Of a DNA stretch of 64,000 bases, positions 16,751 to 31,452 are shown in pieces; position 1 is the first letter of the stretch; every line of letters begins with the position of its first letter. The position numbers and the translations under genes were made by a program. The stretch comes from Parazoarcus communis SWub3 = DSM 12120 (GTDB lineage Bacteria; Pseudomonadota; Gammaproteobacteria; Burkholderiales; Rhodocyclaceae), in contig NZ_QKOE01000004.1 of the NCBI RefSeq assembly GCF_003226565.1, positions 264,751-328,750 of the forward strand, read 5' to 3'. A model generated the notes under the pieces. The model was not told the origin of the DNA, did not search any database, and was given only the letters and a program-made list of their open reading frames with translations.

Positions 16751-19234
16751 ATGAATACAGAAACCGTTTCCTACAGCGCGGTCGAGGAAGACCGCGACTG
16801 CTATCACTGCGGCTTGCCGATTCCGCCCGAGACCCGTCATTACGTCCGCATCGACGGACGCGATCGGCGCATGTGCTGCATCGGTTGTGAGGCGGTCGCA
16901 CAGTCCATCGTCGACAATGGCCTGATCGACTATTACCGCCACCGTGATGCCATGCCCGAGACGCGTCGTGAGGCGATGCCGCTCGAGCTGCAGGAACTTG
17001 GTCTGTTCGATCATCCCGATTTCCAGAAGAGTTTCGTGCGCCCGGTGGGTGAGCACGAGCGTGAGGCCTCGCTGATCCTCGAAGGCATCACTTGTGCGGC
17101 CTGCGTGTGGCTCAACGAGCAGCATGTAGCCCGTCAGGACGGCGTGTCGGCGGTCGAGATCAACTACGCCACCCGACGGGCGCGGGTGCGCTGGGACGAA
17201 CGCAAGATCAGGCTCTCGGACATCCTGGCTGCAGTGCAGGCAATTGGTTACCGCGCCTATCCTTACGATGCCGAACGGTCAGAGCAGATCGCGCACAAGG
17301 AGCGGCGCTCGATGCTGTGGCGGGTGTTCGTCGCAGGCTTTGGCATGATGCAGGTGATGATGTATGCCTTCCCGGTCTATGTTGCCGGCGAGGGCGACAT
17401 GAGCGCCGAGATGGAACTCTTGATGCGCTGGGCCAGCCTGCTGCTGACCCTGCCGGTGGTGCTGTATTCGGCGGCGCCGTTCTTTCAGCGCGCGGTGCGT
17501 GACATCCGCCTGCGCCGGCTGGGCATGGATGTGCCGGTGGCGCTGGGGGTGGGCAGCGCCTTTCTTGCCAGTTTGTGGGCGACCTTGACTCACGGGCCCG
17601 AGGTCTATTTCGACTCGGTGACGATGTTCGTGTTCTTCTTGCTGGGCGGGCGCTATCTCGAGATGCTGGCGCGACAGAAAGCGGTTCGCGGCGTCGAGGA
17701 GCTCGGCAAGGTCCTGCCTGCCTTTGCTGACCGGCTTCCGGCCTGGCCAGATCAGACCAGCGAGCGCGTGCCAGTGTCGCAACTGTTGCCCGGTGACCGG
17801 GTGCGGGTGCGCCCGGGTGAGGTCGTTCCGGCCGACGGTGTGGTGATCGAAGGCCAGGGCGAAACCAATGAATCCTTGCTCACCGGAGAGAGCCGGCCGG
17901 TGAGCAAGCGGATTGGCGATGTGCTGACCGGCGGCAGCATCAATATTTCCAGCCCCCTGATATTGCGGGTCGATCAGGTGGGCGATTCCACCCGCCTTGC
18001 CGCCATCCGTCGCCTGATGGACCGGGCCGCGACCGAAAAGCCCCGCATCGCGGCGCAGTCGGATCGCGTTGCGGTGATCTTCATCGTGACCCTGCTGGTG
18101 CTGGCGACGGCGACGGGTTTGGCGTGGTACTTCATTGATCCGCAGCGCGCGCTATGGGTGTTCGTTTCCGTGCTCGTGGTTGCCTGCCCGTGCGCCTTGT
18201 CGCTGGCCACGCCCACTGCCTTGACGGTGGCAACCGATGCGCTGGCGCGCATGGGGGTGCTGGTAACCCGTGGTCATGCAATCGAAACCTTGTCCAATGC
18301 CAACCATTTTGTTTTCGACAAGACCGGTACGCTGACCTATGGGCGAATGACACTGGAAGAAGTCGTGCCACTGGCGGGCTACGACGAGACGCGTGTGCGC
18401 GCGTTGGGCGCTGCGCTGGAGCAGGGCTCGGAGCATCCGGTTGCCGCAGGCCTGAGAGGGGCCGCAGGCGATGCCGTCCTGCCGCCAGTTGGTGACCTTG
18501 CCGCGGTGACCGGGCAGGGGGTTTCCGGTTGTGTCGAGGGTCAGCAGATGTGGATTGGTCGTCCCGACTTCGTTGCAGAAGCCATCGGTCGGGACTGTCC
18601 TGCCGAACTGGCGTCGCTTGAGGTGCGAGGGGGGACGGTTGTTGCGCTTGGCGCCCGCGAGGGATGGATTGGGCTGTTCCGCCTTGCCGATGTGCCGCGC
18701 GCCGAAGCTGCAGTGCTGACTGCGAGACTGAGTGCGAGTGCCATCCCGATGTCGGTGCTGTCCGGCGATGCGCCACAGGTCGTCGGGCGTGTCGCGGGTC
18801 AGCTGGGGATTGTCGATGCGCATGGCGGCATGACGCCGCAGGGCAAGCAGGCCTACATTGCCGGTTTGCAAGGCCGGCCGGGTGCGGTGGTGGCCATGGT
18901 GGGTGACGGTGTCAATGATGCGCCGGTTCTGGCGCAGGCGCATGTGTCGGTCGCAATGGGCGGCGGTACGGACCTGGCGCGAAATCAGGCCGACATCGTG
19001 CTGTTGAGCGAAAATCTTGCCGGGTTGGGGCAGGCGGTGGATCTGGCGCGCCGTACGGTGCGCATCATTCGTCAGAACCTGTGGTGGTCGTTTGCCTACA
19101 ACTTTACCTCCGTGCCGCTGGCAATGCTCGGCCTGGTGACGCCGTGGATGGCCGGCATCGGCATGGCCGGAAGTTCCTTGCTCGTCGTACTCAATGCAAT
19201 GCGGCTGCAGCGCGTGCCGCGAGAAGGCAAGTAA
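16751..19234 (+). CDS. ccoI: Copper-translocating P-type ATPase of cbb3 oxidase assembly (CcoI/FixI)
   Basis: Exports Cu(I) across the inner membrane for insertion into the CuB site of cbb3 oxidase. 827 residues. The N-terminus has two Cys pairs (C17-x2-C20 and MCCIGC) in a FixI-specific metal domain, then an HMA domain with GITCAAC at Cys115/Cys118. Eight membrane segments are expected; the transport motif CPC is at residues 479-481, the phosphorylated Asp523 lies in DKTGT, the HP motif in GSEHPVA and the hinge in GDGVNDAP. The start at 16751 (MNTETV) is preferred to a GTG 48 bases earlier because it begins just before the conserved Cys domain. ccoS begins immediately after its stop codon. 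Confidence 0.95.
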   Translation: MNTETVSYSAVEEDRDCYHCGLPIPPETRHYVRIDGRDRRMCCIGCEAVAQSIVDNGLIDYYRHRDAMPETRREAMPLELQELGLFDHPDFQKSFVRPVGEHEREASLILEGITCAACVWLNEQHVARQDGVSAVEINYATRRARVRWDERKIRLSDILAAVQAIGYRAYPYDAERSEQIAHKERRSMLWRVFVAGFGMMQVMMYAFPVYVAGEGDMSAEMELLMRWASLLLTLPVVLYSAAPFFQRAVRDIRLRRLGMDVPVALGVGSAFLASLWATLTHGPEVYFDSVTMFVFFLLGGRYLEMLARQKAVRGVEELGKVLPAFADRLPAWPDQTSERVPVSQLLPGDRVRVRPGEVVPADGVVIEGQGETNESLLTGESRPVSKRIGDVLTGGSINISSPLILRVDQVGDSTRLAAIRRLMDRAATEKPRIAAQSDRVAVIFIVTLLVLATATGLAWYFIDPQRALWVFVSVLVVACPCALSLATPTALTVATDALARMGVLVTRGHAIETLSNANHFVFDKTGTLTYGRMTLEEVVPLAGYDETRVRALGAALEQGSEHPVAAGLRGAAGDAVLPPVGDLAAVTGQGVSGCVEGQQMWIGRPDFVAEAIGRDCPAELASLEVRGGTVVALGAREGWIGLFRLADVPRAEAAVLTARLSASAIPMSVLSGDAPQVVGRVAGQLGIVDAHGGMTPQGKQAYIAGLQGRPGAVVAMVGDGVNDAPVLAQAHVSVAMGGGTDLARNQADIVLLSENLAGLGQAVDLARRTVRIIRQNLWWSFAYNFTSVPLAMLGLVTPWMAGIGMAGSSLLVVLNAMRLQRVPREGK

Positions 19235-19444
19235 ATGGAAAGCCTGTACCTGTTGATCCCTTTGTCGGTCGTGCTGGTATTCATCATCGGCGTGCTGTTC
19301 TGGTGGTCCTTGCGCAACGGTCAGTATGACGACATGGAGGGGCCCGCCTATCGCCTGCTGCTCGACGACAAGGAAGAGTTGCCCCCATCCGAGCCCGAGA
19401 AGACGACTGCCCGCCCGGTCGATGACGGCAAAGGAGCGTCCTGA
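19235..19444 (+). CDS. ccoS: cbb3-type cytochrome oxidase assembly protein CcoS
   Basis: 69 residues. A single membrane segment (LYLLIPLSVVLVFIIGVLF) followed by WSLRNGQYDDMEGPAYRLLLDD, the CcoS signature. Required in related bacteria for cofactor insertion into CcoN. The ATG directly abuts the ccoI stop codon, so the two are translationally linked. Confidence 0.94.
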   Translation: MESLYLLIPLSVVLVFIIGVLFWWSLRNGQYDDMEGPAYRLLLDDKEELPPSEPEKTTARPVDDGKGAS

Positions 19445-19463
19445 GCGACAACTGCATGCTTGT

Positions 19464-19505
19464 TTGATCTAGGTCAAGTCGATGACTGCTGACAATAGAC
19501 ATACT
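19464..19505 (+). promoter_or_regulatory. FNR-type box and -10 upstream of a candidate small RNA
   Basis: TTGAT-CTAG-GTCAA (19464-19477) matches the FNR/ANR consensus. CATACT at 19500-19505 is a 4/6 -10 with 22 bp between box and hexamer, the geometry of class II FNR-activated promoters (box centred about -41.5). Predicted start about 19512. No gene start follows until ccoN, after a terminator. Confidence 0.65.
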
Positions 19506-19511
19506 TCGCAC

Positions 19512-19614
19512 ATGGTTTTTGAGGTTGCTGCACAAGGGATTGTGCAGCAGGCTGCAAGGAATTTTTGTCTCTCTGTTGGGGTTGGGGGTGCGTTCGATAC
19601 GCACCCTTTTTTTT
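19512..19614 (+). ncRNA. Candidate FNR-activated small RNA between ccoS and ccoN
   Basis: About 103 nt from the predicted start to the end of a U8 tract. It contains a perfect 9-bp hairpin (GCTGCACAA at 19527-19535, loop GGGA, complement at 19540-19548), an unpaired pyrimidine-rich stretch around 19561-19580, and a terminator hairpin at 19586-19606. The ATG at 19512 opens a frame that runs through the terminator and has no ribosome site, so a peptide is unlikely. Promoter, internal stem-loop and Rho-independent end together are the architecture of Hfq-type sRNAs such as enterobacterial FnrS. It is a prediction, with no homology evidence available here. Confidence 0.55.
19586..19614 (+). terminator. 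Rho-independent terminator of the candidate small RNA
   Basis: GGGTGCGT (19586-19593), loop TCGAT, ACGCACCC (19599-19606), then eight T. It also separates ccoIS transcription from ccoNOQP. Confidence 0.9.
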
Positions 19615-19714
19615 CGTCCTGCACCGTGGCGGTGCCGCAGGATGGCTCAATGACCGGAAATGCCCTGTTCCAGTGCCGGCGAGCTTTCCCCGGGTCTTGC
19701 GGTGCAATACAATG

Positions 19715-19755
19715 TTGATCTGTGTCAAATTGTGGATCCGGTCAGCAGGTATCCT
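19715..19755 (+). promoter_or_regulatory. FNR-dependent promoter of ccoNOQP
   Basis: TTGAT-CTGT-GTCAA (19715-19728) with TATCCT (19750-19755) as -10, 21 bp between them; predicted start about 19762, giving a leader of roughly 70 nt. The geometry is class II FNR. cbb3 operons are established FNR/ANR targets, so this is the expected oxygen control. Confidence 0.8.
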
Positions 19756-19830
19756 TGCCGCGCAAGATGGCTGGGATGTTTCCCTCGCGATCGGCTGTAC
19801 CCAGGGGTTTTTAACTAAGAGGTGACTCAC

Positions 19831-21261
19831 ATGCAATCGCAAGCGACTTATAACTATAAAGTCGTGCGCCAGTTCGCCATCATGACGGTGGTGTGGGGCA
19901 TCGTGGGCATGCTGGTCGGCGTCATCGCCGCAGCACAGCTCGTGTGGCCCGAACTGAACGTTCACGAATTCCTGCACTTCGGCAGGCTGCGTCCGCTTCA
20001 CACCAATGCGGTGATCTTCGCATTTGGTGGTTGCGCACTGTTCGCCACGTCGTACTACATTGTGCAGCGTACCTGTCATACGACACTGTTCGCGCCCGCG
20101 CTTGCAGGCTTCACCTTCTGGGGCTGGCAGCTCGTGATCGTGCTGGCTGCCATCACCCTGCCGCTGGGTTATACCTCCGGCAAGGAATACGCCGAACTCG
20201 AATGGCCGATCGACATCCTGATCGCCGTGGTGTGGGTGTCCTACGCCATCGTGTTCTTCGGCACCATCGCCAAGCGCAAGATCAGCCATATCTACGTGGC
20301 CAACTGGTTTCTGGGTGCCTTCATCCTGACCGTTGCCTTGCTGCACATCGTCAACAGTGCTGCAATTCCGGTCTCCTTCTCCGGCATGAAGTCCTACTCC
20401 GCCTACGCCGGCGTTCAGGATGCAATGATCCAGTGGTGGTATGGCCACAACGCGGTGGGCTTCTTCCTGACCGCAGGCTTCCTGGGCATGATGTACTACT
20501 TCGTGCCGAAGCAGGCCGATCGCCCGGTCTACTCCTATCGTCTGTCGGTGGTCCACTTCTGGGCGCTGATCTTCACCTACATGTGGGCGGGTCCGCACCA
20601 TCTGCACTACACCGCGCTGCCTGACTGGACCCAGTCCGTTGGCATGGTGTTCTCGCTGATCCTGCTTGCTCCGTCCTGGGGTGGCATGATCAACGGTGTG
20701 ATGACCCTGTCGGGCGCCTGGCACAAGCTGCGTACCGACCCGATCCTCAAGTTCCTGATCACCTCGCTGTCCTTCTACGGCATGTCCACCTTCGAAGGCC
20801 CGATGATGTCGGTCAAGACGGTGAATGCACTGTCGCACTACACCGACTGGACGGTGGGCCACGTGCACTCCGGCGCGCTGGGCTGGGTGGCAATGATCTC
20901 CATCGGTTCGGTGTACTTCCTGCTGCCGCGCCTCTATGGCAAGAGCGAGATGTACAGCGTCAAGCTCATCAACACCCACTTCTGGGTGGCCACCATCGGT
21001 ATCGTGCTGTACATCGCCTCGATGTGGGTGGCCGGTGTGATGCAGGGTCTGATGTGGCGCGCAACCAACCCGGACGGCACGCTGACCTACTCCTTCGTCG
21101 AGAGCGTCAAGGCAAGCTACCCGTTCTGGACCATCCGCTTCGTCGGTGGTGCGCTCTTCCTCGCTGGCATGTTCATCATGTTCTACAACATGGTGAAGAC
21201 CATTGCCGGAGAAAAGGCCTACAACGCGCCGGTGGTCGCTCCTGCGGCTGCTCACGCCTAA
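19831..21261 (+). CDS. ccoN: cbb3-type cytochrome c oxidase subunit I
   Basis: Catalytic subunit with heme b, high-spin heme b3 and CuB; reduces O2 to water with high affinity and pumps protons. 476 residues, 12 membrane segments. Heme and copper ligands are visible in [28 protein letters not shown] (CuB His), [15 protein letters not shown] (two His), and the late [18 protein letters not shown] block (heme b3 and b His). The start at 19831 is chosen because AGAGGTGA lies 5-12 bases before it; a GTG at 19822 lies within that ribosome site. First gene of ccoNOQP-G-H. Confidence 0.97.
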
Positions 21262-21276
21262 GCGGAGAACAACAAC

Positions 21277-21912
21277 ATGGCTCAATCCAAACACGAAAAG
21301 ATCGAAAAGAACGTATTCCTGATGATCGTCCTCACGCTGCTGACAGTCAGCGTGGGCGGTCTGGTGGAAATCGTTCCGCTCTTCTTCCAGCAAACCACGA
21401 CTTCGCCGGTGGATTACAAGGGTAACCAGCTCAACGTGAAGCCCTACGATCCGGTTCGCCTGGTCGGCCGCGACATCTATGTGCGTGAAGGCTGCTACAA
21501 CTGCCATTCGCAGATGATCCGTCCCTTCCGCGCAGAGACCGAGCGTTATGGTCACTACTCGGTGGCGGGTGAGTACATCTACGATCACCCGTTCCAGTGG
21601 GGCTCCAAGCGTACGGGTCCGGATCTGGCCCGCGTGGGCGGCCGCTATTCCGACGAATGGCAGCGTGTGCACCTGATCAACCCGCGTGACGTGGTGCCGG
21701 AGTCGAACATGCCGGCCTTCCCCTGGCTGGATCGCCCGGCCAAGGTGAGTGACATCCAGGACAAGATGCGTGCGCTCAACAAGGTTGGTCTGCACAAGTA
21801 CAGCGACGAAGAGATCGCCGCCGCGCCTGCTGCAGTCGAGGGCATCACCGAACTGGACGCTGTCGTCGCCTACCTGCAGGGCATGGGTACCGCGCTGCAG
21901 AACGTACGGTAA
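21277..21912 (+). CDS. ccoO: cbb3-type cytochrome c oxidase subunit II (monoheme)
   Basis: 211 residues. One N-terminal membrane anchor ([25 protein letters not shown], given here in part) and a periplasmic c-type heme domain with CYNCH at Cys73-Cys76-His77; the axial Met is probably in [10 protein letters not shown]. It passes electrons from CcoP to CcoN. It lies 15 bp after ccoN with a purine-rich GCGGAG ribosome site. Confidence 0.97.
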
Positions 21913-21928
21913 GCACCGGAGACGCGCC

Positions 21929-22114
21929 GTGGATATCAACACCCTCAGAATCGTCGTGACCGTGCTGGGCTTCGTCTGCTTCCTGGGCATCTGTGCCTGG
22001 GCTTACAGCCGGCATGCCCAGGCAGGGTTCGACGAGGCGGCGCGTCTGCCCCTGAGCGATGACGATCTGCCGGCCTCTGGCCGGCTGGAAAAGGAAGGAA
22101 AAACAAATGGCTGA
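21929..22114 (+). CDS. ccoQ: cbb3-type cytochrome c oxidase subunit CcoQ
   Basis: 61 residues beginning at GTG with CGGAGA upstream. A single membrane segment (LRIVVTVLGFVCFLGICAW) is followed by YSRHAQAGFDEAARLPLSDDD, the usual CcoQ tail. Stabilises the oxidase complex. Its last 8 bases overlap the start of ccoP. Confidence 0.88.
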   Translation: MDINTLRIVVTVLGFVCFLGICAWAYSRHAQAGFDEAARLPLSDDDLPASGRLEKEGKTNG

Positions 22115-26038: not shown

Positions 26039-26095
26039 ATTATAGCCACGGTCGTGTCTGTTTCAGGGTTGACGAGGGTCAACCCTGAAACAGAC
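26039..26095 (-). promoter_or_regulatory. usp promoter with 18-bp perfect inverted repeat containing an FNR-type box
   Basis: Arms 26056-26073 and 26078-26095 are perfect complements around a 4-nt GAGG centre. The central 14 bp, TTGAC-GAGG-GTCAA (26069-26082), is a symmetric FNR/DNR-type box. On the minus strand TATAAT (26044-26039) lies 24 bp away, close to class II spacing, directing usp. On the plus strand no convincing -10 is seen before the MBL gene at 26129. The symmetry extends well beyond an FNR site, so a second regulator or an RNA structure is possible. Confidence 0.65.
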
Positions 26096-26128: not shown

Positions 26129-27538
26129 ATGGACATCACGTTCCACGGCGCAGCGGGTGAGGTCACCGGATCATGTGCAGTCGTACGCCATGGCGGTGGG
26201 GCTTTCATGGTGGACTGTGGCATGTTCCAGGGTGGGCGCGAGGCACCACTCAAGAATCTGCGCGCATTGGATTTTGACCTTGATCAACTCGATTGCGTGC
26301 TGCTGACGCATGCGCATCTCGATCATTCTGGCCTGCTGCCGAGGTTGGTTGCGCTGGGCTATCGAGGCCCCATCTATGCGACGGCGGCCACCGTCGATCT
26401 GCTAGGCGTGATGTTGCTGGATTCCGCGCATATCCAGGAAAAGGAAAGCGAGTGGGTCAATCGCCGCAACCGCTCACGCAATGTTCGCCGGGGATGGGAG
26501 GCCGCTCCCCTTTACACGGTGGAGCAGGCACGCAGGAGCTTGCAGCACTTGAAGCCAGTGACCTACGACGCGGCGGTGCAGGTTGCGCCAGGGGTGCTGT
26601 GCCGTTTCCACGATGCCGGGCACATCCTGGGGTCAGCCATCCTCGAACTTGAAGTTGCATGTGCGGGCGGGGTGCGGCGCATGCTGTTTACCGGCGATCT
26701 CGGACAGCCGCGGCGCCCGGTGCTGCGCGACCATTGGTTGGCGCATCGCGCGGACTATCTGTGCATTGAAAGCACCTACGGCAATCGGGCCCATCGTGCG
26801 ATGGATGATACCGAAGACGAACTTGTGCACGTGTTGCAGGACACGCTCATGCGCAAGGGCGGTAATGTGATCATTCCCGCATTTGCCGTGGGGCGGACGC
26901 AGGAGATGCTGTTCGTACTGGCAAAGCTGGTGCGCAGCGGGCGGATTGCAAGTCTGAATGTCGTGGTCGATTCGCCGATGGCCAGCGCCGTCACTGACCT
27001 GACACTTCAGCATGCGGACCTGTGGGATGATGAAACGCGGGAGCTCCTCGATTGGACCCGAAGCCATGCAGACCGTTTTCATGTGCGTTTCGTCGCCGAC
27101 GTCGAGGAGTCCATGGCATTGAACCACCAGCCCGGTGGTCTGGTCATCATCTCTGCAAGTGGCATGTGTGATGCTGGCCGCATCAAGTACCATCTGCGTT
27201 ACAACCTGGGCCGGCGCGAGTGTTCGATTGTCATCGCCGGCTTCCAGGCGGCCGGGACCTTGGGGCGCAGGTTGGTGGACAAGGCACGGGCAGTGACGGT
27301 GTTCGGCGAGCGTATCGCGGTACGGGCAGACATATATACCATTGGTGGTCTGTCGGCGCATGCCGACCAGCCCGCCCTGCTTGAATGGATGCGGCATATT
27401 GAAACACCGCCACGGCAGACTTTCCTGGTGCATGGCGAAATCGAGGCACGGCAGGCCTTCGCCGCTGAGATCACCCGGCAGCTCGGGTGGCCACAGCCGG
27501 TCATGCCGGTTGCCGGTGGGTGCCATCGCTTGACATGA
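26129..27538 (+). CDS. MBL-fold / beta-CASP RNA-processing-type hydrolase (YSH1-like)
   Basis: 469 residues. N-terminal metallo-beta-lactamase domain with the zinc motif THAHLDHSG (about residues 57-65), the later His in GHILGSA and Asp in FTGDLG; then a beta-CASP domain (VIIPAFAVGRTQEML, DSPMASAVT) and the C-terminal RMMBL motif with GGLSAHADQPALLEW. The set of motifs is that of CPSF73-like RNases/exonucleases. The gene has CGGAGG 7 bases before ATG and is followed 43 bp later by phaC, so they are likely co-transcribed. The RNA or DNA substrate is unknown. Confidence 0.88.
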   Translation: MDITFHGAAGEVTGSCAVVRHGGGAFMVDCGMFQGGREAPLKNLRALDFDLDQLDCVLLTHAHLDHSGLLPRLVALGYRGPIYATAATVDLLGVMLLDSAHIQEKESEWVNRRNRSRNVRRGWEAAPLYTVEQARRSLQHLKPVTYDAAVQVAPGVLCRFHDAGHILGSAILELEVACAGGVRRMLFTGDLGQPRRPVLRDHWLAHRADYLCIESTYGNRAHRAMDDTEDELVHVLQDTLMRKGGNVIIPAFAVGRTQEMLFVLAKLVRSGRIASLNVVVDSPMASAVTDLTLQHADLWDDETRELLDWTRSHADRFHVRFVADVEESMALNHQPGGLVIISASGMCDAGRIKYHLRYNLGRRECSIVIAGFQAAGTLGRRLVDKARAVTVFGERIAVRADIYTIGGLSAHADQPALLEWMRHIETPPRQTFLVHGEIEARQAFAAEITRQLGWPQPVMPVAGGCHRLT

Positions 27539-29415: not shown

Positions 29416-29451
29416 AAATGGCGAACTTGATTGCGGTCAAGTTCGCCATTT
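29416..29451. terminator. Hairpin between convergent phaC and DNR-like gene
   Basis: A 15-bp perfect stem (29416-29430 with 29437-29451) with a 6-nt loop, starting 31 bp after phaC. The arms end in AAA/TTT, suiting termination on both strands. The centre reads as an FNR-type box (TTGAT-TGCG-GTCAA, 29427-29440), but no promoter is expected between converging genes. Confidence 0.7.
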
Positions 29452-29469: not shown

Positions 29470-30156
29470 CTAGCCTTGATGGTGGCTCAGGGCGCGTGGG
29501 TCGTGCAGGTTGATGCGTTTGCCGTGGACGCTGATCAGCTTGCGCTCCACCAGGTCATGAAAGATGCGGGAAAGTGTCTCCGGGGTCAGGTTAAGCCGCG
29601 ATGCGATGACCTGCTTGCTGGTTGGCAGCGTGATCTCGCAGGGGGTGTTGTCGTCGCGGTCGGCCAGCTGGATGAGATAGCCGATTACGCGCTGGGTGCT
29701 GGAGCTGAGCGAATAGGCTTCCACGTCACGGACCAGGTTGTGCAGGCGAACCGCCATGCCGGCAAGCAGCTTGCGTGCGAAGCCAGGTTCCTTGTCGATC
29801 AGTTCTGAAACGATACCCTGCTTGATGTGCAGCAGTGTGCTGTCGCTCAGCGCCTCCGCAAAGACGGGGTAGGGGCGTTCCAGAAACATGACCGCCTCGC
29901 CAAAGCTCTGGCCGGGGCCGATGATCTCGACCACCTTTTCATTACCCTGAACGGACGAGAATGCCAGCTTGATCTGGCCTGATTGCACAAAGTAGAAGCC
30001 CTGAGGGGCATCACCGCGCTGAAACAGCAGTTCGCCCTTGCGCAGTTGCCGCTCTCTGGTGAAGTGGCTGACCCGGACGAGCTCGTCATCCGATAGCTCT
30101 CCAAACAAGGAAATCTGTCGCAGCTGGGTGGAAATGGCGGAGAGTGTCTGGTTCAT
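29470..30156 (-). CDS. CRP/FNR-family regulator, DNR-like (no Fe-S cysteines)
   Basis: 228 residues. Effector domain residues 15-125, dimer helix 126-150, winged HTH from about 180. The recognition helix has Glu193-x-x-Ser196-Arg197 (PETLSRIFH), the same ExxSR triad as FNR, so it should bind FNR-type boxes. Only one Cys (Cys173) is present, excluding an FNR-type cluster. FGEAVMFLERPYPVFAEAL replaces the cAMP cassette. This combination is that of DNR/NnrR nitric-oxide regulators of denitrification; heme-NO sensing is inferred from the family. Confidence 0.85.
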   Translation of the reverse strand: MNQTLSAISTQLRQISLFGELSDDELVRVSHFTRERQLRKGELLFQRGDAPQGFYFVQSGQIKLAFSSVQGNEKVVEIIGPGQSFGEAVMFLERPYPVFAEALSDSTLLHIKQGIVSELIDKEPGFARKLLAGMAVRLHNLVRDVEAYSLSSSTQRVIGYLIQLADRDDNTPCEITLPTSKQVIASRLNLTPETLSRIFHDLVERKLISVHGKRINLHDPRALSHHQG

Positions 30157-30652: not shown

Positions 30653-31399
30653 TCAACAAGCGCGCTGCTGGTGCTGGATCAGTTTCTTCAAGCCGGCATT
30701 GTCCAGGATGCGGATGTGCTTCTGCTGCACGGTGACCAGGCCTTCATCCTGAAAGCGGGAGAAGGCGCGCGATACCGTCTCCAGCTTGAGCCCCAGATAC
30801 GAGCCGATTTCCTCACGGGTCATCCGCAAGTGGAATTCTGCCGCAGAGAAGCCGCGTGCGGTAAAGCGCTGGGACATGTTCAGCAGAAAGGCTGCGAGAC
30901 GTTCTTCGGCGCGCATCGAGCCCAGCAGCATCATGACGCCGTGGTCGCGCACGATCTCGCGACTCATGACCTTGTGAAACTGGTGTTGCAGGCCTTCGAC
31001 TTCGCGCGACAGCTCCTCGAGCCGGTCGTAGGCAATCACGCAGACTTCGCTGTCTTCAAGGGCGACCGCGTTACAGGAATGCAGCTCGGTGCTGATGCCG
31101 TCGAGCCCGAGGATTTCGCCGGTCATCTGGAAGCCGGTGACCTGCTCACGGCCATCTTCAAGCAGGACGTCGGTCTTGAACGAGCCGGTGCGGATGGCGT
31201 AGATGGCCTCGAACGGGTCGCCCGCCCGGTAGAGGGGTTGCTGCCGCTTGATCTTGCGTCGAGCGCCCACCAGATCGTCGAGCCGGTGCAGTTCGCTGTC
31301 CGACATGCCGAAAGGCAGGCACAGTTCCACCAGATTGCACTGGGCGCAGGCTGCTTTCAGCCCCACCGCGGTAATTGGCACCGTCGCCTTCATCTGCAC
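30653..31399 (-). CDS. fnr: Oxygen-sensing [4Fe-4S] regulator FNR/ANR
   Basis: 248 residues. Cluster cysteines Cys18, Cys21, Cys27 (ACAQCNLVELC) and Cys109 (LHSCNAV) match the FNR arrangement. The recognition helix has Glu207-x-x-Ser210-Arg211 (LETVSRAFSRF). It activates microaerobic genes by binding TTGAT-N4-ATCAA-type sites, several of which lie in this window. Gene start 31399 (MQMKATVP); Met3 is an alternative. Divergent from hemN with an FNR box between them, implying autoregulation. Confidence 0.96.
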   Translation of the reverse strand: MQMKATVPITAVGLKAACAQCNLVELCLPFGMSDSELHRLDDLVGARRKIKRQQPLYRAGDPFEAIYAIRTGSFKTDVLLEDGREQVTGFQMTGEILGLDGISTELHSCNAVALEDSEVCVIAYDRLEELSREVEGLQHQFHKVMSREIVRDHGVMMLLGSMRAEERLAAFLLNMSQRFTARGFSAAEFHLRMTREEIGSYLGLKLETVSRAFSRFQDEGLVTVQQKHIRILDNAGLKKLIQHQQRAC

Positions 31400-31438: not shown

Positions 31439-31452
31439 TTGATCCACGTCAA
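31439..31452. promoter_or_regulatory. FNR box in the fnr-hemN divergent region
   Basis: TTGAT-CCAC-GTCAA lies 54 bp before hemN and 40 bp before the fnr start. For hemN, CATCGT at 31475-31480 is a weak -10 with 22-bp spacing. For fnr the box lies where autoregulation would act. hemN activation by FNR is known in other proteobacteria. Confidence 0.75.

Follow-up and report, generated by a model that had tools for sequence, protein, structure and literature searches.

In the 64-kb window analysed here, i.e. the whole stretch of 64,000 nucleotides, ccoS and ccoN lie on the same strand, and the gap between them contains a compact element (19464-19614). Its parts follow one another as FNR box, -10-like hexamer placed at class II spacing, strong hairpin, conserved stretch, and T8 terminator (Table 1). 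The original prediction, made from the letters alone, had named box, -10, hairpin, and terminator in this order, and all of them are present at that place. The ends of the predicted RNA were derived from the box spacing rule (start) and from the terminator (end): because the box is taken as centred at -41.5, the RNA would start near 19512 and be ~103 nt long, and with this start CATACT falls at -12 to -7. The 103-nt RNA has a predicted fold energy of -43 kcal/mol (z -5.4), with none of 200 shuffles equally stable. The 5′ hairpin, announced as a perfect 9-bp stem, is indeed there and slightly longer, with ten Watson–Crick pairs plus one G–U, while the description of the following stretch as pyrimidine-rich proved half right, the invariant sequence UCUCUGUUGGGGUU being pyrimidines and then guanines. 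The 14 nt TCTCTGTTGGGGTT have their sole match within the window at this element, allowing up to 2 mismatches, and the last two G of the surrounding pairing stretch are shared with the terminator stem.

Table 1. Features of the ccoS–ccoN interval and the presumed activator gene, in window coordinates.
Feature	Position	Strand	Basis
ccoS, upstream neighbour	19235..19444	+	NCBIfam TIGR00847, 69.7 bits
FNR box TTGATCTAGGTCAA	19464..19477	+	sequence; predicted class II activator site centred at -41.5
-10-like hexamer CATACT	19500..19505	+	4/6 matches to TATAAT; conservation peak in 105 relatives
Predicted small RNA, ~103 nt	19512..19614	+	fold energy; part order kept in relatives
5′ hairpin, ten Watson–Crick pairs and one G–U (11 pairs), loop GGGA	19525..19550	+	fold
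Predicted target-pairing stretch UGUCUCUCUGUUGGGGUUGGGG, also written TGTCTCTCTGTTGGGGTTGGGG	19566..19587	+	used in duplex tests
Invariant 14 nt TCTCTGTTGGGGTT	19570..19583	+	52-row alignment
Intrinsic terminator: 8-bp stem 19586-19593/19599-19606, T8 19607-19614	19586..19614	+	terminator scan; covariation
Second FNR box TTGATCTGTGTCAA, before ccoN, presumed separate unit	19715..19728	+	sequence
ccoN, downstream neighbour, ATG at 19831	19831..21261	+	NCBIfam TIGR00780, 782.8 bits, frame opening at 19822
fnr, presumed activator	30653..31399	-	NCBIfam NF008365 Fnr, 253.4 bits, cut-off 228

The 64 kb of the window contain 6 copies of the FNR pattern TTGAYNNNNRTCAA, where shuffles lead one to expect 0.11. 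Besides the two boxes listed in Table 1, four further ones were noted, of which one (31439-31452) sits just upstream of fnr and the remaining three (26069-26082, 26274-26287, and 29427-29440) are close to two ORFs, one of the metallo-beta-lactamase type (26129-27538, named by eye) and one of the Crp/Fnr type (29470-30156). A plain sigma-70 scan of 18000-22000 returned no promoter (0 found vs 1.1 expected), which fits an activator-dependent promoter, and a plain terminator scan of the same interval returned 3 hits vs 2.5 expected, a count that is not significant alone.

We searched 199 genomes of the family for relatives of the element. A DNA search with 19440-19640 gave a match in all five genomes of the window's genus and in 147 of the 199 family genomes (E<=1e-3), mostly via the 3′ 50 nt, and a covariance model built on the 3′ half of the element recovered 159 of the 199 at E<=1e-4 (155 at E<=3.7e-9), leaving 40 genomes of the family without a match to the model. 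Several genera of the family (g14, g18, g28, and g53) seem to be without the sRNA, through either loss or strong divergence: none of the genomes sampled from them gave a good match in the DNA search, and those of their genomes that are listed in the covariance-model scan had no model match. Beyond the family, strong model matches (>=56 bits) among 399 genomes of the order came from 13 family genomes and 2 others (L119 and L120), and nothing above 33 bits was seen among 274 genomes of the class except the window's own match, both scans having been run with stricter filters under which weak matches are lost. The two outside genomes are MAG-like (many contigs, <90% complete) and could be mis-binned. 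Weaker out-of-family model matches were discarded, those inspected (L126-L151) being mostly bare terminators.

Two groups of these outside loci are described here in their own right. In a genome from another family of the order (G236), locus L128 (~1250-1760 of the reverse complement) holds two tandem divergent elements of the form GTCTCCTCCCC(C)TGTT..GGGG plus terminator, which may be distantly related; in their vicinity suhB/mmgR is matched weakly, at 29.8 bits with a cut-off of 41. Five loci from other families (L129, L131, L136, L138, and L143) have an amtB-like 3′ UTR (named by eye) upstream of the match, and these 3′ UTRs end in a CU-rich stretch, e.g. CTCTCTCTGAGTCAG, directly before the terminator; they may represent 3′-UTR sRNAs.

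A stricter-pattern scan with names returned at least 118 stretches. Among the matches listed, carriers include Azoarcus, Aromatoleum, Thauera, Zoogloea, Denitromonas, Dechloromonas, Azonexus, Uliginosibacterium, Accumulibacter, and Sulfuritalea, and many of the names are less specific MAG names. NCBI taxonomy places Azoarcus, Thauera, and Dechloromonas in Rhodocyclales, Accumulibacter as incertae sedis, and Sulfuritalea in Nitrosomonadales. The named carriers include denitrifiers, aromatic degraders, and phosphorus accumulators living on oxygen swings.

For a closer comparison, 110 loci spread over genera were studied, of which the search itself supplied 30 and another 80 were chosen by position, with a lower limit of E ~3e-4. 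Given that these loci were picked by core similarity, the shared core is partly a product of selection, while box and neighbourhood mostly are not. All 110 loci contain CTCTGTTGGGG, and those listed end in a terminator. The genomic setting is strongly conserved, with ccoI and ccoS before and ccoN after the element in 96 of the 110 loci; the others have only ccoI/ccoS (6), only ccoN (7), or neither (1), and some of these gaps are contig ends. Where ccoN was found (103/110), it always lies downstream on the same strand, 174-442 nt away in all loci except L063, in which it is 1.8 kb from the element. This arrangement is what would be expected if the element were an untranslated leader or attenuator of ccoN, transcription from the first box being either stopped at the terminator or continued into ccoNOQP. 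We consider this unlikely, as a separate FNR box stands before ccoN, past the terminator, and as a leader would leave unexplained the 14-nt invariant stretch, the complementary sites in folE2 and tusE described below, and the five loci (L034, L036, L038, L078, and L097) with no ccoN within ~2 kb of downstream sequence.

Conservation of the parts is uneven along the element. In an alignment of 52 loci, chosen from 86 distinct 3′ sequences, all 14 columns of the core are invariant, and the terminator stem next to it covaries, with both partners altered in 5 of the 8 pairs, pairing kept in 95.2% of cells, and a covariation score that none of 500 shuffles reached. Upstream of the core, 105 of the 110 loci have a perfect TTGA-N6-TCAA no farther than 160 nt away, and 108 have one when the limit is set at 300 nt, compared to 2 of 1975 control windows of 160 nt drawn from the same loci. 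The 105 relatives with the nearer box show two further maxima of conservation, one at the -10 position (A 66%, T 51%, A 74%, and T 74% at +30.5, +31.5, +32.5, and +34.5 from the box centre) and one near the predicted RNA start. The conserved box and its class II spacing thus point to an FNR-dependent promoter, as judged from sequence. Conservation across 110 relatives, FNR box included, also places the element above chance: terminator-like sites are about as frequent in 18000-22000 as in shuffles, as an accidental terminator and hairpin in an ordinary intergenic gap would have it, yet this reading is contradicted by the conservation, the covariation, and the FNR-box association in relatives, and we regard it as having a negligible probability.

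The 5′ part behaves differently from the 3′ part: its sequence is not conserved even within the genus, while its fold, evaluated in 103 of the 105 loci that have the nearer box, is in most of them more stable than that of dinucleotide shuffles (median z -2.5, with 60 of 103 loci below -2 and 87 below -1). A part that folds well while its sequence drifts fits a protective cap. In the same 103 loci, the unpaired probability of the invariant stretch in the predicted full fold has a median of 0.52, reaching at least 0.5 in 79 loci and at least 0.7 in none. The check proposed at the outset, that box, hairpin, and terminator should recur in relatives with paired changes, was therefore passed by box and terminator, and for the 5′ hairpin the outcome is split, as the fold is kept in most relatives and the sequence is not. 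The idea of a complete sRNA transcription unit is likewise supported by the conserved box and covarying terminator, and the sequence holds what a trans-acting sRNA would be predicted to have, namely its own promoter, a terminator with a long U tail, and a conserved seed complementary to mRNA starts.

A small protein in place of a regulatory RNA is very improbable. An ATG does stand at 19512, at the head of a frame that stays open through the terminator; among the 105 relatives, however, ATGG is found at the predicted start in just 26, of which 18 are open into the core, distributed over the phases as 4, 7, and 7. Coding is unlikely because the open frames that reach the core use all three phases. 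Furthermore, no ribosome site is evident before 19512, in line with the initial claim that no start codon here is supported by one.

The two loci without a box within 300 nt (L042 and L090) are informative exceptions. In both, CTCTGTTGGGG follows an OmpW gene whose stop codon begins 12 nt ahead of it, and farther upstream (750 and 769 nt, respectively), in front of ompW, there is an FNR box; the protein of L042 is OmpW by Pfam PF03922 (155 bits), and that of L090 was named by eye. The FNR logic would thus be kept in these relatives, and the RNA would either be released from the ompW 3′ UTR or itself serve as that 3′ UTR. That the 3′ module is borne by ompW in two relatives suggests that the 3′ stretch is the working part and the 5′ hairpin a replaceable cap. 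A stand-alone sRNA and a 3′-UTR version of one module would coexist in the family.

Putative targets were sought by pattern in the 199 genomes, 110 of which had at least one match, the sRNA gene itself included, and 60 start-like regions (one place twice) as well as 30 loci, among the matches listed, were read for genes. The pattern matched 29 times against 3 for its reversed control. This excess is not proof, because AGAGA resembles a ribosome-binding site and because RNase P RNA accounts for four of these 29 matches. They come from four of the five genus genomes (L480, L482, L499, and L503), where RNase P RNA contains CAACAGAGA, complementary to the seed, probably by coincidence; its identity was confirmed by Rfam at two of these loci and by the same context at the other two. 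We then relied on a duplex energy scan, in which the window from -45 to +6 around a gene start was ranked against same-strand windows spread over the same locus. Each test set comprised 30 loci. For sucA, present in 45 of 46 genomes searched, and for folE2, present in 58 of 61, the best 30 were taken; the 30 dsrC-type loci came from 14 genomes (46 searched) and were split by identity into the 9 nearest and 21 paralogues. Loci L402 (sucA) and L444 (folE2) are cut at contig ends and were left out of the counts. The names FolE2, an enzyme family different from FolE, and TusE/DsrC are based on NCBIfam and Pfam.

The conserved stretch is complementary to the folE2 ribosome-binding site. Of 29 folE2 loci, 12 ranked among the best 1% of windows and 14 among the best 5%, which leaves 17 outside the best 1%. 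In all five genomes of the window's genus, CAACAGAGA lies just before the folE2 start. The tusE/dsrC-type gene of the nearest-by-identity set ranked in the best 1% in 7 of 9 loci, compared to 1 of 21 for the dsrC paralogues (best 5%, 4/21), and sucA did so in 4 of 29 (best 5%, 8/29). More than 95% of their own dinucleotide shuffles were beaten by 12 of 29 folE2 sites, 8 of 9 tusE sites, and 3 of 29 sucA sites. With the window fixed, the real stretch outperformed 199 of 200 dinucleotide-shuffled stretches for folE2, all 200 for tusE, and 180 for sucA. The tusE/dsrC-type gene is found in 14 of 46 family genomes, and since the window's own genome is without it, folE2 is the one supported target here. 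Among folE2 genomes without a model match, two were tested: G006 (L441) has no good site, and G008 (L437), from a genome that is 84% complete, has a strong one.

Other candidates fared less well. The TCA-cycle gene sucA looked promising in L354 and L355 and was rejected as only 3 of 29 loci beat 95% of their own shuffles and as 20 of the 200 shuffled stretches did as well as the real one. A target in cis near the operon was also rejected, with complementary 9-mers on the sense strand rarer than chance (8 vs 37 expected over 118 named loci, out of at least 118). The opposite strand of the named loci holds 30 complementary 9-mers, most of them at +400 to +700, inside ccoN. In the window's own genome, a search with the 14-mer and two mismatches found six sites beside the sRNA gene, none of them convincing at a gene start. 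The suggestion that the RNA adjusts aerobic gene expression is sharpened in part by these results: folE2 and the tusE/dsrC-type gene are upheld as predicted targets, and sucA is not.

Candidates seen in a single or a few genomes, most of them named by eye, include isocitrate lyase, tpx, erpA, iscS, PEPCK, and lipA, as well as a bufferin-like protein, DsrE-like proteins, and cytochrome c. Eight loci (L338, L372, L374, L377, L351, L365, L485, and L494) hold recurrent candidates with a site before the start, these being bufferin-like proteins, DsrE-like periplasmic proteins, cytochrome c, and lipA-like genes, again mostly named by eye.

It is possible, if rather unlikely in our view, that the sRNA is real and acts mainly on other mRNAs or by binding protein, with the folE2 and tusE sites being minor or coincidental. 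Such a reading would accommodate the 10-mer CCAACAGAGA found at other start regions in single genomes, the 17 of 29 folE2 loci beyond the best 1%, the absence of tusE from the window's genome, and the likeness of AGAGA to a ribosome-binding site, which makes the excess of 29 over 3 unspecific. The shuffled-stretch and paralogue controls, in contrast, favour folE2 and tusE specifically. We prefer, as the likely reading, an sRNA of ~103 nt that is predicted to be switched on by FNR at low oxygen and that would block translation of folE2, and of a tusE/dsrC-type gene in some relatives, by pairing with the ribosome-binding site. This reading draws on a conserved box and -10, an invariant stretch, a covarying terminator, a recurrent place between ccoS and ccoN, and complementary sites, each of which is directly observed. 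As oxygen falls, FNR would bind the box and recruit RNA polymerase, and the RNA would be made and end at the U-rich terminator. Its UCUCUGUUGGGGUUGGGG stretch could then pair across the ribosome-binding site of folE2 and, where present, also that of the tusE/dsrC-type gene, and this pairing would lower translation of the target, presumably with the help of an RNA chaperone such as Hfq.

Known RNA families were compared with the element at several levels of sensitivity. In an Rfam scan of the whole window, only tRNAs reached the gathering score. With laxer limits, 19400-19850 gave 7 matches (E up to 10) and 16 relatives gave 6 (E up to 0.5), none of them to FnrS. The FnrS gene neighbourhood also differs from the one described here. 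Weak matches to SorY (RF02651) that include the terminator were obtained in the window (21.6 bits) and in 3 of the 16 relatives (L075, 26.1 bits; L120, 26.1 bits; L119, 28.9 bits). At 21.6-28.9 bits, these matches to an RNA of Rhodobacter sphaeroides are far below the cut-off of 111, and FNR control is not known for SorY. Within the Betaproteobacteria, AniS of Neisseria meningitidis is an FNR-dependent sRNA.

Other sRNAs of oxygen-limited cells can be set apart by their description. NarS is, according to the part of the source available, an FNR-controlled sRNA from the 3′ end of narK (PMC8139620). It resembles the ompW variant of two relatives in being an sRNA from the 3′ end of an mRNA, whereas at 108 of the 110 loci studied here a box belonging to the RNA itself stands no more than 300 nt away. 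PaiI of Pseudomonas aeruginosa and PcrZ of Rhodobacter sphaeroides are raised at low oxygen and differ by their activators, which are others than FNR in the available text (PMC8139620). An Aromatoleum systems-biology paper, in its accessible portion, mentions small RNAs merely as a possibility (PMC9765128). Among the papers listed in searches of the non-subscription literature, neither a description of the present RNA nor any oxygen-responsive sRNA of the named carriers was found. Together with the lack of an Rfam match above threshold, this suggests a new sRNA family of a known kind.

The closest comparison is with FnrS of E. coli, which, in the section of the source available, is activated by FNR and represses genes dispensable without oxygen (PMC8139620), and for which FnrS–folE is listed as an interaction in the accessible part of a second source (PMC4114697). 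The two RNAs are alike in their activation by FNR, predicted for the present RNA. The partner predicted for the present RNA is folE2, which encodes another GTP cyclohydrolase family than folE; the two differ in that FnrS occurs in enterobacteria and the present RNA in Betaproteobacteria. The early view of the element as analogous to FnrS in design and without sequence relation still holds, with no FnrS match even in the laxer scans, and the element is likely a trans-acting, FNR-activated sRNA that is FnrS-like in function. Its invariant 14-nt seed, a clear candidate for its activator, and two predicted targets with conserved sites make this family-wide element a test case for post-transcriptional control at the aerobic–anaerobic shift in bacteria other than enterobacteria. 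It also allows one to ask whether sRNAs without common origin arrive at a single enzyme step. We tentatively suggest such a convergence, in which an unrelated Rhodocyclales sRNA beside the cbb3 operon might have evolved independently to shut down GTP cyclohydrolase (here FolE2, in E. coli FolE) and, where present, a sulfur-relay protein at the aerobic–anaerobic switch, its 3′ seed–terminator module being perhaps movable between a stand-alone gene and an FNR-boxed ompW 3′ UTR.
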